Below, in pieces: positions 28,643 to 58,614 of a DNA stretch of 64,000 nt (position 1 is its first letter; each line of letters begins with the position of its first letter). A program made the position numbers and the translations under genes. The DNA lies in the NCBI RefSeq assembly GCF_000092225.1, contig NC_014158.1, forward strand, positions 1,736,001 through 1,800,000. The letters are read 5' to 3'. Origin of the DNA: Tsukamurella paurometabola DSM 20162. Lineage in GTDB: Bacteria; Actinomycetota; Actinomycetes; Mycobacteriales; Mycobacteriaceae. The notes under the pieces were generated by a model. The model did no database searches. It saw nothing but the letters and a program-made list of their open reading frames with translations, and was not told the DNA's origin.

Positions 28643-29476
28643 ATGCCGATCGATACTCCGAGCACGGTGCAGGTTCCCGTGGGGTCGTGGACCTTCGACG
28701 TCTCGGTCGGGGGACCTGAGCACGGGGTTCCCGTGCTACTGCTGCACGGGTTTCCGCAGACCGAAGCGTCCTTCGACCAGGTGCGCGAGCGCCTGCACGA
28801 GGCGGGTCTGCGCACTGTCGCGCCGCGCCAGCGCGGCTACAGCGCGGGGGCGCGCCCCGAGGGCGTGGACGCGTACACGATGAAGCAATTGGCGGAGGAT
28901 GCCGCCGGCGTCCTGGACGCGCTCGAGATCCCTTACGCGCACCTCGTGGGTCACGGCCTCGGCGCCACGGTCGCGTGGCACTTCGCCGCGGCGTACCCGT
29001 TGCGCGCGATGAGCCTGACCGCCGTCTCCTTCGGCCATCCGTCGGCGTTCGGCGAGGCGATGGCCTCGGATCCGGATCAGCGGCAGCGCTCGCGCTACCT
29101 CGAACTGTTCCTCACGGCGGGAGAGGCGGAGAAGCAACTCCTCGACAACGGTGCGCGCACGCTGCTCGCCACGGCGCCGGGCGGCGGTATCGAGGCGGTC
29201 GCGAACGACGCCACGCTCACCGCGGGACTGAATTGGTACCGGGCCAACATGGTTCCCGGTGGGGAGGGACTGGACTGCCCGCTGATCGAGGTGCCGACCA
29301 CGCTGGTGTGGGGCGCGCGCGATGCGATCGCGGGGCAGGCGCAGGCCAGAGGTACCGCCCGGTACCTCCGCGCCGATTACCGGCTCAGCGAGGTCCCGGA
29401 CGGTGACCATTGGCTTCCGCTGCGCAATCCCTCGGCCCTGGCCTCGGAGATCGCGCTGCGGACGCTACGGAACTGA
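28643..29476 (+). CDS. alpha/beta hydrolase-fold protein lacking the nucleophile
   Basis: 277 residues with a complete alpha/beta hydrolase layout: oxyanion loop LLLHGFPQTEASF, strand-loop APRQRGYSAGARP, nucleophile elbow LVGHGLGATVAWHFA, acid region VWGARDAIAG and GDHWLPL with the histidine. At the elbow, residue 105 is Gly where Ser or Asp is required (VGH-G-LG). The codon is GGC, one base from AGC Ser. The protein may be a non-enzymatic or decayed hydrolase, or use another mechanism. It converges on the metallothionein-like gene with one base between stops. Confidence 0.83.
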   Translation: MPIDTPSTVQVPVGSWTFDVSVGGPEHGVPVLLLHGFPQTEASFDQVRERLHEAGLRTVAPRQRGYSAGARPEGVDAYTMKQLAEDAAGVLDALEIPYAHLVGHGLGATVAWHFAAAYPLRAMSLTAVSFGHPSAFGEAMASDPDQRQRSRYLELFLTAGEAEKQLLDNGARTLLATAPGGGIEAVANDATLTAGLNWYRANMVPGGEGLDCPLIEVPTTLVWGARDAIAGQAQARGTARYLRADYRLSEVPDGDHWLPLRNPSALASEIALRTLRN

Positions 29477-29477
29477 A

Positions 29478-29579
29478 CTACGTGTCGGAGCCGCAGCTGC
29501 AGCTGTCGCCGCAGGTGCAGTTCTCACACGTGCAGTTGGGGTTGGAGCAGCCGGGCGCATTCAAATCATTGTGATTCAT
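29478..29579 (-). CDS. metallothionein-like Cys-rich peptide, 33 residues
   Basis: An ATG-to-TAG frame of 33 residues with seven cysteines (11, 16, 18, 21, 23, 27, 29) arranged as three CxC motifs in CTCENCTCGDSCSC, plus His3. Such density and CxC spacing is characteristic of metallothioneins, which bind Zn(II), Cu(I) or Cd(II) through thiolate clusters. It differs from the longer mycobacterial MymT. The gene lies 10 bp after the mycothione reductase stop on the same strand, so it could be made from the mtr transcript. A TAGAGT box 7 bases upstream could also give its own leaderless mRNA. Metal binding is inferred from composition only. Confidence 0.72.
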   Translation of the reverse strand: MNHNDLNAPGCSNPNCTCENCTCGDSCSCGSDT

Positions 29580-29586
29580 GCATATG

Positions 29587-29592
29587 ACTCTA
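29587..29592 (-). promoter_or_regulatory. -10 box of the metallothionein-like gene, leaderless layout
   Basis: TAGAGT on the minus strand, 7 bases before ATG 29579. It overlaps the stop codon of mtr. Confidence 0.4.
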
Positions 29593-30999
29593 TCGCTCGG
29601 TGTGCAGGCCGAGCAAGGCGTTCTCGACCAGTTCGGGTAGCGCCGGATGGATCCAGTACTGCCCCCGTGCGAACTCCTTCGCCGGGATCGAGAACGACAT
29701 GGCCGTGATCGCCGACTGGATCAGCGCGGAAGCCTGGTGACCCACGATGTGCGCGCCCACCAACAGCCCGGTCTCCCGATCCGCGATCAGCTTGCACACG
29801 CCCTCGGCGTCCCCCATCGCCCAGCCGTAGGCGATGTCCGCGTACCGCTGCTCCACCACCGCCACATCGATACCGCGGTCCCGGGCCACCGCCTCGGTGA
29901 GCCCCACCGAGGCGACCTGTGGCCGGCTGAACACCGCACCCGGCACGAAGCGATGATCAGTGGTGGCGGCGGGCGCGTCCCAGCCCGACAGCAGATTCTC
30001 GGCCACCACCCGCGCCTCGTGGTTGGCCACGTGCCGCAGGGGGAACGGGGTGCTCACATCGCCGAGCGCCCACACGCCGCGCACGGGGGTGCGTTGGTGC
30101 TCGTCGACGGGGACGCGACCGGCGCCGTCGAGCTCGATGCCGATCGCCGAGGTGGCGAGGGTGTCGCCGTTCGGAGTGCGCCCGGTCGCCACCAGCAGCA
30201 CGTCCCCGGCCACGGTGGACCCGTCGGTGAGATCGACTTCCACTCCATCGCCGGCGGCGCGGGTCGCCGTGACCTCGGTGCTCAGGCGCACGTCCCAGCG
30301 CTGCGAGACGGCCTGGGTGAACGCCTCCGCGATGGTCTGATCCTGGGAGCGCAGCAGGCGCGGGCCGCGGGCCACCACCGTGACCTCGGCGCCGAGACCG
30401 GCGAAGACGTGGGCGAACTCGGCGGCGATGTACCCCCCGCCCACGATGATCACGCGGCCCGGCAGCGACTCCAACCGCATGATCGAGTCGTTGGTGTGCA
30501 CCGGTGCCGACCCTTGGGCGAACACCGGCGGGATCACCGGTCGCGACCCCGCGGCCAGCACCACGTCCCGTCCGGCCACCACGGTGCCGTCCGCCAGTTC
30601 GAGTCGGTGCAGGCCGTCTCCCGAGGCAGGCAGGAACCATGCCTGCTGCTGGAAAACCGTCACGTTGGGACACGTGTCCACGCGATACCGCAACCCGCCG
30701 GCCGCATAGCGGTCGATCCGGCCGAAGACGCGGTCGCGGATCTGCGCCCAGTGCGTGGCGGTGACCTCGGCGTCCACGCCGATCGGACCGGCTTCGCGCG
30801 CCTCGTCGGCCACGTCGGCGGGATAGACGAACATCTTGGTGGGAATGCACCCCACGTTGAGGCAGGTACCGCCGAAGGCCCCGTTGTAATCCTGGCCCTT
30901 ATCGACGATCGCGATCGACCGATCGTCGAACCGCTCGTCGGGGATGGTGTTCCCGGCGCCCGAGCCGACGATCACCAGATCGAAGACCTGTTCACTCAT
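29590..30999 (-). CDS. mtr: mycothione reductase
   Basis: 469 residues. NADPH- and FAD-dependent reductase that returns oxidised mycothiol to the thiol form, the actinobacterial counterpart of glutathione reductase. The FAD motif is [16 protein letters not shown]. The redox-active pair Cys46/Cys51 is in [13 protein letters not shown]. The NADPH fold is [16 protein letters not shown], and the C-terminal [12 protein letters not shown] carries the catalytic His-Glu of the partner subunit. ATG 30999 overlaps the stop of the upstream alpha/beta hydrolase (ATGA), so the two are coupled. The metallothionein-like gene follows. Confidence 0.95.
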
Positions 31000-31994
31000 G
31001 CGCGCGCCTCGATCTCGCGCGCGAGCCACGCCCCGAGCTCGGCGTAGGCGGTCTCCCGCGCCGGCTGCTCGGAGAGGAAGACGTCGTGCTTGGCGTCCGG
31101 CACCGGCACCACGGTGAGCCGATTGCCCAGCGCGCCGGACCACTTGGCGATCTGCCGGGTGTCGAGCACCACATCGGCGCGGGCCGCCTCAGGGCTGTAC
31201 TCCTTCGGAGCGAAGCTCTTGGTGGATCGCAGCACCAGCGACGGCACGCCGATGTCGAGGCCGCGGTGCAACAGGCTGTGCGCCACGCGTACCGCCCGCA
31301 GCCAACCGAACCGCACGGGGAAGCCCTCGATCGGCTTGATCGCGGTGTCGAAGTCGAACTCTCCGTGCTCGCTGGCGTGGATGGTCTGCCCGTACACGCC
31401 GACCGCCTCGACCGGTACCGGCCGGGTACCGACCGCCTTGCCGATGAGTTTGACCACCGGGGTGGCGACCTCACGGAGCACGGCGGAGCCCTGCAGGTCG
31501 AACCACGGGCTGTCCAGCACCAGGCCCACGATCGGCGCGGTGCGGCCGGCCTGACGCCGCCGGTCCAACCACAGCGGGGTGATCAGGCCACCGGTCGAAT
31601 GTGCGGCCACCACGACGCCCAGTCCGGGGTGCTCGGCCGCGATGGCCTCGACCGCGAGATCGAGCTCGGTGTCGTAGACGGTGAAGTCGGTGGCGTAATG
31701 CGCCGACTGACCTTCGCGCAGCGACCGCCCGCATTTGCGGAGATCCAGTGCATAGAAGGCGTAACCGCGGTCGGCGAAGAACTCCGCGACCGCGGTCTGG
31801 AAGAAGTAGTCCGAGAAACCGTGCACCCACAGCACAGCGCGTTGTGGAGCGTCCGGGCCGGCCACATGCTTGACCAGGGTCGCCGCGATATCGCCTCCGG
31901 GCTCGCCGTCGGGATCGGGCCCCAGGTCGAAGGTGTGCGCAACGTAATCGTCGCCGAGGATGTCGGGGGAGTAGGTCAGCTCAGTGGTCGCCAC
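30996..31994 (-). CDS. alpha/beta hydrolase, serine aminopeptidase/monoacylglycerol-lipase type
   Basis: 332 residues. It has oxyanion loop [12 protein letters not shown], nucleophile Ser133 in AAHSTGGL, and late Asp/His in VPDAKHDVF. It matches the S33/monoacylglycerol-lipase-like group, and its position next to mtr and mqo corresponds to M. tuberculosis Rv2854. The substrate is unknown; lysophospholipids or monoglycerides are typical for the group. The start is GTG 31992-31994, set by a TACAGT box 6 bases upstream. It is the first gene of an operon with mtr. Confidence 0.86.
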
Positions 31995-58191: not shown

Positions 58192-58614
58192 ATGATGAAC
58201 ACTGTGAACTTCGGCACGCCGGCGGTGCGGCGCGCGCTGGCCGGTGGCGCCCTCCTCGCCGGACTGGGCGCCGTGGTCGCCTGCTCCCCGTCGAACGGCG
58301 GGTCGATGCCCTCGTTCACCGTCAATCCGTCGGCACCGGCGACGGTGTCGGCGACGCCGAGCACGACCGCGTCGTCGGCGCCCGCGACGACCACGGCGCC
58401 CGCACCACCGCAGACCACCTACCCGCCGGTCCCGGAGCAGACCACCCAGCAGACGCAGGTCCCGACGCAGCAGGAACCGACGCAGCAGTACCCCACGCGG
58501 GTACCTACGACGATCCCGCGAACCATCGTTCTGCCGTCCGGGATTCAGCTGCCCCCGGGAGTGCCGCCCACGATCACGCTGCCGCCGGGGATCCCCACCG
58601 AACTGCCGCGCTGA
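58192..58614 (+). CDS. small Pro/Thr/Gln-rich lipoprotein
   Basis: 140 residues. The signal peptide (RRALAGGALLAGLGAVVAC) ends in a lipobox-like VVAC, so the mature part should be lipid-anchored on the cell surface. The mature region is low-complexity: Ser/Thr/Ala-rich, then QTTQQTQVPTQQEPTQQYPT, then two PPG motifs in LPPGVPPTITLPPGIPTELP. The function is unknown; it may be a wall-spanning or glycosylated stalk. Start choices are ATG 58183, 58192 or 58195. Confidence 0.65.
   Translation: MMNTVNFGTPAVRRALAGGALLAGLGAVVACSPSNGGSMPSFTVNPSAPATVSATPSTTASSAPATTTAPAPPQTTYPPVPEQTTQQTQVPTQQEPTQQYPTRVPTTIPRTIVLPSGIQLPPGVPPTITLPPGIPTELPR

Follow-up and report, generated by a model that had tools for sequence, protein, structure and literature searches.

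A conserved cysteine-rich short gene behind mycothione reductase in Tsukamurella probably encodes a small metallothionein

Directly behind the mycothione reductase gene (mtr) of Tsukamurella paurometabola DSM 20162 lies an open reading frame (ORF) of only 33 codons, unusually rich in Cys. Is it a gene, does its product bind metal and does it belong functionally with mtr? The original prediction, made from the letters of a 64,000-nucleotide stretch (the window; NC_014158.1, positions 1,736,001 to 1,800,000), held all three to be so. The window belongs to a genome of 4,479,724 bases, including a contig of 4,379,918 bases.

A cysteine-rich frame between mtr and a convergent hydrolase

The features at the locus are as follows (window positions):

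29478..29579, minus strand: metallothionein-like ORF of 33 residues with seven Cys (stop codon 29478-29480 included in the coordinates)
29577..29592, minus strand: putative leaderless promoter/start, with TAGAGT, CATATGC and ATG (29579-29577)
29590..30999, minus strand: mtr, mycothione reductase, the co-directional upstream neighbour (NF005884, 695.5 bits, cut-off 501)
30996..31994, minus strand: alpha/beta hydrolase (Hydrolase_4), overlapping the mtr start by 4 nt
28643..29476, plus strand: convergent alpha/beta hydrolase (Abhydrolase_1), ending 1 nt from the peptide stop

The frame was found as predicted, on a strand that the prediction had left unstated, the minus strand: its translation, MNHNDLNAPGCSNPNCTCENCTCGDSCSCGSDT, comprises 33 residues with seven Cys (21% Cys) and three CxC motifs, and its ATG lies 10 nt beyond the mtr stop codon TAG (29592-29590), co-directional with mtr. 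The core of the peptide contains no His. The "hydrolase" of the original prediction is ambiguous, one being located upstream of mtr and another convergently downstream of the peptide gene. The former (30996-31994) likely forms an operon with mtr, whose product scored 631.1 bits against TIGR03452, slightly below the cut-off of 635.65. As the latter is convergent, there is no co-directional gene directly 3' of the peptide gene. Family-profile matches revealed no copper gene among the immediate neighbours, and a sigma-70 promoter scan at the peptide locus found nothing. No terminator-like site was found at 29300-29800, so that read-through from mtr is possible.

No other ORF among the 298 of 20-60 residues in the window has three CxC motifs. 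Across 100 windows simulated with a Markov-1 model, one of 47,815 ORFs of 20-60 residues combined at least seven Cys with at least three CxC motifs, and none reached at least seven Cys at 21% Cys or more. A second Cys-rich short ORF in the window (58419-58526, minus strand) also contains seven Cys, in 35 residues, but does not reach three CxC motifs.

Homologues of the peptide are present in 14 of 16 Tsukamurella genomes and absent from G001 and G008. The gene is placed between mtr and the convergent hydrolase in 13 of the 16; in the draft genome G007 it lies on a short contig without mtr. In G001, the hydrolase ends almost directly after mtr and the peptide is cleanly missing, a loss inspected directly against G000; for G007 and G008, the end of mtr went unrecognised in that comparison, and their mtr downstream stretches were covered by an ORF scan and a looser Cys scan. 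All seven Cys are invariant across the 13 mtr-linked copies. Comparison of these copies, with one codon of L007 omitted for register, gave a pN of 0.041 and a pS of 0.153 for core codons 10-31 (dN/dS ratio 0.25), and ratios of 1.05 for the N-terminal codons 2-9 and 0.58 for the whole ORF. The peptide core is thus under purifying selection, which is how the synonymous/non-synonymous check proposed with the original prediction turned out.

Two deviating records were noted in the genus. In the G007 peptide (L137/L194), GENC is inserted and the tail is longer. A T. tyrosinosolvens record labelled "plasmid 19" (L064, NZ_LR134461.1) carries the mqo-mtr-map region and has an incomplete gene table; the label looks doubtful, because this region is chromosomal in other Tsukamurella genomes.

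The TAGAGT hexamer (29592-29587), a -10 box, overlaps the mtr stop codon. In all 13 mtr-linked copies, TAnAGT is followed by 7 nt ending in ATGC and then by the ATG, an arrangement that suggests a leaderless gene and from which we infer a leaderless mRNA. The TAnnnT box claimed for the gene is therefore seen at the window copy and throughout the linked copies. In the whole T. paurometabola genome, TANNNTNNNATGCATG has three matches. Mycobacterium, Mycobacteroides and Gordonia show the same start arrangement in different chromosomal surroundings; among 111 non-identical places bearing the core, 62 looked leaderless by our own regular expression, 53 of them with TGC directly before the start. 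A stricter pattern, TANNNTNNTATGCATG, had a single match in a 6.1 Mb Mycobacterium genome and a single match in a 6.0 Mb Gordonia genome, each at the peptide gene, two matches in a Tsukamurella genome, and none in one Williamsia and one Segniliparus genome.

Apart from one 7-codon frame, the only other gene found to share the promoter pattern was that of an ABC transporter, seen in two Tsukamurella genomes. This ABC half-transporter also has a leaderless TAGCCTTGTATGC-ATG start (L176:2209-4090, G000:C1 about 3885208; L223, G004), making its co-regulation with the peptide gene possible.

Linkage to mtr and the wider peptide family

The original prediction had further proposed a thiol/metal module with mtr. 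In all eight genomes of other genera that were compared, the homologue is unlinked to mtr. Conversely, from 37 mtr loci we set aside four of Tsukamurella and L168 (72 nt downstream), and in the 1.5 kb downstream of mtr at the remaining 32 loci, from 31 genomes, no complete ORF (start to stop, 20-80 residues) carried three CxC motifs; one of the 32 sits beside a 35%-identical paralogue. An mtr search of 30 genomes left six without a match. A looser scan, free of start and length limits, detected Cys-rich stretches at three of the 32 loci (L175, L212 and L219), which lack the family spacing and in some cases are 0.8-1.1 kb away from mtr. Open frames of 513-514 residues that resembled an mtr-peptide fusion were dropped, their translations being another phase of the same stretch and not mtr.

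Conservation of the Cys pattern next to mtr thus holds within the genus, in 13 of 16 genomes, and fails outside it. Because homologues in other genera are unlinked and none of the 32 mtr loci has the peptide, we regard the adjacency as a genus-level position. These two observations, together with the loss in G001, do not support the proposed module, and a functional module of the peptide with mtr is unlikely.

The window peptide fits a broader pattern, C-x-NP(N/D)C-x-C-x2/3-C-x-C-G-x2-C-x-C. A profile built from 17 members matched 33 of 401 genomes of the family at E<=0.01, 14 of them in the own genus; the 19 matches in other genera were inspected without the two weakest. At class level, ten of 394 genomes were matched, four in the own family; of the remaining six, four resemble chance frames, and only G485 and G520 are left. 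A search pattern at the DNA level, built on the cysteine spacing, retrieved 99 stretches from GTDB species genomes, with fewer than 0.1 chance matches expected by our own estimate under uniform base composition. Its actinobacterial matches lie in Tsukamurella, Mycobacterium and relatives, Gordonia, Williamsia, Segniliparus and other actinobacteria; beyond these, it matched in Bacteroidota, Alphaproteobacteria, Clostridia and Fimbriimonadaceae. Because both NP(N/D)C and the spacing were prescribed in this search, the likeness across phyla arises partly by construction, and convergence rather than homology may account for distant members. The first Cys, which the pattern left free, is still present in 25 of 27 representatives. 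Gordonia members have one additional residue between the first and second CxC motifs. Tandem two- or three-domain versions occur in actinobacterial and mycobacterial MAGs (L068, L090, L096, L103, L126 and L160), several of them near a heavy-metal ATPase.

None of the family libraries searched contains a model for these peptides. NCBIfam gave no match of any kind for 27 members; in Pfam, the window peptide had no match either, and three of the 27 showed weak metallothionein echoes (Metallothio_5, best E 0.0034). A PDB search returned weak echoes and nothing stronger. Searches of phages and viral contigs were without a match for the peptide; among plasmids, a single record, bearing chromosomal genes, was matched, and a further plasmid search found none. 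No description of an NP(N/D)C-CxC family was found in the open-licence PMC literature, which does not prove the family undescribed.

Metal context and the function of the peptide

Of the 50 loci outside Tsukamurella that have 3.2 kb or more of upstream sequence, 12 have a P-type ATPase within 4.6 kb and 38 have none; the P-type ATPase, HMA-like and CsoR-like flags at loci derive from our own motifs. As background, TIGR01511 matches 4-5 times per genome in four whole genomes. The ATPase cases come from few lineages and cannot be counted as phylogenetically independent. In Mycolicibacterium senegalense, M. setense and relatives, the peptide gene shares its strand with a heavy-metal P-type ATPase gene and lies roughly 450-700 nt downstream of it; in several actinobacterial MAGs, such an ATPase lies on the opposite strand. 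All four neighbouring ATPases tested exceed the TIGR01511 copper cut-off. They also exceed the TIGR01512 cadmium-family cut-off, all four with lower scores than against the copper model, which makes the copper assignment tentative. Three of three alphaproteobacterial neighbours tested belong to the CsoR family (Pfam), their best NCBIfam match being RicR, below its cut-off. A CsoR-like operator, defined by our own regular expression, lies upstream in nine of 97 loci versus 12 of 4,235 control windows (0.3%), and also at a second Segniliparus genome (L184); none was seen upstream of the Tsukamurella copies. The T. paurometabola genome encodes two CsoR-family proteins and has four TIGR01511 matches, three over the cut-off. 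Gordonia loci were free of metal-gene flags except for one motif error, and no Mycobacteroides locus was flagged.

Some flags were rejected on closer analysis: the CsoR-like flag at L108/L181 was an error caused by an Arg-rich frame, and for the HMA-like flag in Bacteroidota, Pfam confirmed just an AraC-type HTH in two of two proteins tested. Next to the peptide at ten Bacteroidota loci (L074, L075, L080, L089, L100, L102, L115, L118, L127 and L129) lies a protein about 185-210 residues long that has a CxxC motif in its N-terminal part, and the two tested carry the AraC-type HTH; this neighbour is perhaps a metal-sensing regulator. In Mycobacteroides, putative DsbE/CcdA-like genes were recognised by eye upstream.

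Based on these results, we suggest that the peptide is a small metallothionein, most probably for Cu(I), a reading that we hold with fair assurance. A leaderless promoter of its own (TAGAGT, 7 nt, ATG) would drive the gene, possibly with additional transcription by mtr read-through. The core of the peptide, C-x4-C-x-C-x2-C-x-C-x3-C-x-C, would enclose a small cluster of thiolate-bound metal, in all likelihood Cu(I). In this way the peptide, probably cytosolic, would serve in copper buffering or detoxification, together with exporting ATPases and CsoR/RicR-type control. Translation, metal binding, a preference for Cu over Zn and copper control in Tsukamurella are inferred steps of this proposal; copper rather than zinc is likely, a judgement drawn wholly from the associations seen in relatives.

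How do other readings fare? That the frame is spurious and yields no product would suit its length of just 33 codons and the T. tyrosinosolvens copy, for which the incomplete gene table lists no gene. Conservation, dN/dS, promoter-like sequence and the chance controls all oppose this reading, which we rejected and to which we assign virtually no probability; the ORF is near certainly a real gene. Being probably leaderless, short and Cys-rich, the ORF also resembles the mycobacterial upstream ORFs described in PMC4633059, and could by analogy act as a cysteine-responsive attenuator. With the next gene convergent and 1 nt away, there is no downstream operon for such an attenuator to regulate, and the Cys occur in CxC spacing rather than in runs, within a protein core under purifying selection. 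We therefore rejected this very improbable alternative. A somewhat larger, still small probability remains for the thiol/metal module, in which mtr would keep mycothiol, and thereby the peptide, reduced. It would fit the adjacent, co-directional arrangement in most Tsukamurella genomes and the possible read-through. Against it stand the 32 mtr loci of other genera, none with such a peptide, the unlinked homologues, the clean loss of the peptide beside an intact mtr in G001 and the gene's own start element, which accompanies it, in the same type, in other contexts.

The most serious competitor, less probable than a copper protein and with a minor share of the probability, is a zinc or general-purpose (Zn/Cd) metallothionein. 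SmtA-type bacterial metallothioneins are described as binding Zn tightly (PMC10612145), the ATPases next to relatives pass the cadmium-family model as well and the Tsukamurella copies have no CsoR-like operator. This reading is opposed by the better scores of all four ATPases against the copper model, by the CsoR-family genes or CsoR-like operators of relatives and by the core without His. In either case, small size, a high Cys content in CxC-type motifs and conservation are metallothionein features, and the peptide is very likely, by its sequence, a metallothionein-like protein. The original claim of a metallothionein-like small gene has thus stood up, with a Cys pattern conserved next to mtr within the genus and a selected core.

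Comparison with known metallothioneins

Reviews of copper handling, as far as consulted, treat SmtA-type proteins and MymT as the bacterial metallothioneins. The peptides described here could, with an evenly balanced chance, form a third family besides these, spread over several phyla and specialised for Cu(I), which in Mycobacteriales has a near gene-specific TAnnnTnnnATGC-ATG start. As part of that same reading, the gene in Mycobacteriales keeps TAnnnTnnnATGC-ATG in different chromosomal places; this element may also be a regulator site. The small size of most of its genes, only about 26-60 codons, would explain why such a family escaped notice. If a widespread, short and unmodelled family is real, cytosolic metal buffering is under-counted in Mycobacterium, Gordonia and Tsukamurella, and, if the homology holds, in Bacteroidota and Alphaproteobacteria too.

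The likeness to SmtA/BmtA (PF02069, Metallothio_Pro) lies in being a bacterial metallothionein. SmtA, as its available descriptions have it, is a Zn-binding protein with a zinc-finger fold. Neither the window peptide nor any of 26 relatives had PF02069 among its Pfam matches, and this profile was found in none of 31 genomes searched, with a control search detecting it in Synechococcus. The copper metallothionein of the fungus Neurospora crassa is likewise tiny and CxC-based, with seven Cys, in an order unlike that of the window peptide.

Cys-rich short ORFs of mycobacteria are described as leaderless (PMC4633059). They precede operons, whereas behind the window peptide gene there is no co-directional gene that it could attenuate, and the peptide is conserved in its protein sequence. 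Another parallel is MymT, the copper metallothionein of M. tuberculosis, which is portrayed as a small, cytoplasmic, Cys-rich protein with a CxC motif that had been non-annotated before its discovery (PMC6337107, PMC9470648, PMC7558416). MymT is reported to be part of the RicR regulon, whereas no CsoR/RicR-like site was seen at the window gene. Compared by description, a MymT of 4.9 kDa stands beside a window peptide of 33 residues, and both are small Cys-rich proteins with CxC from the same taxonomic order of bacteria.
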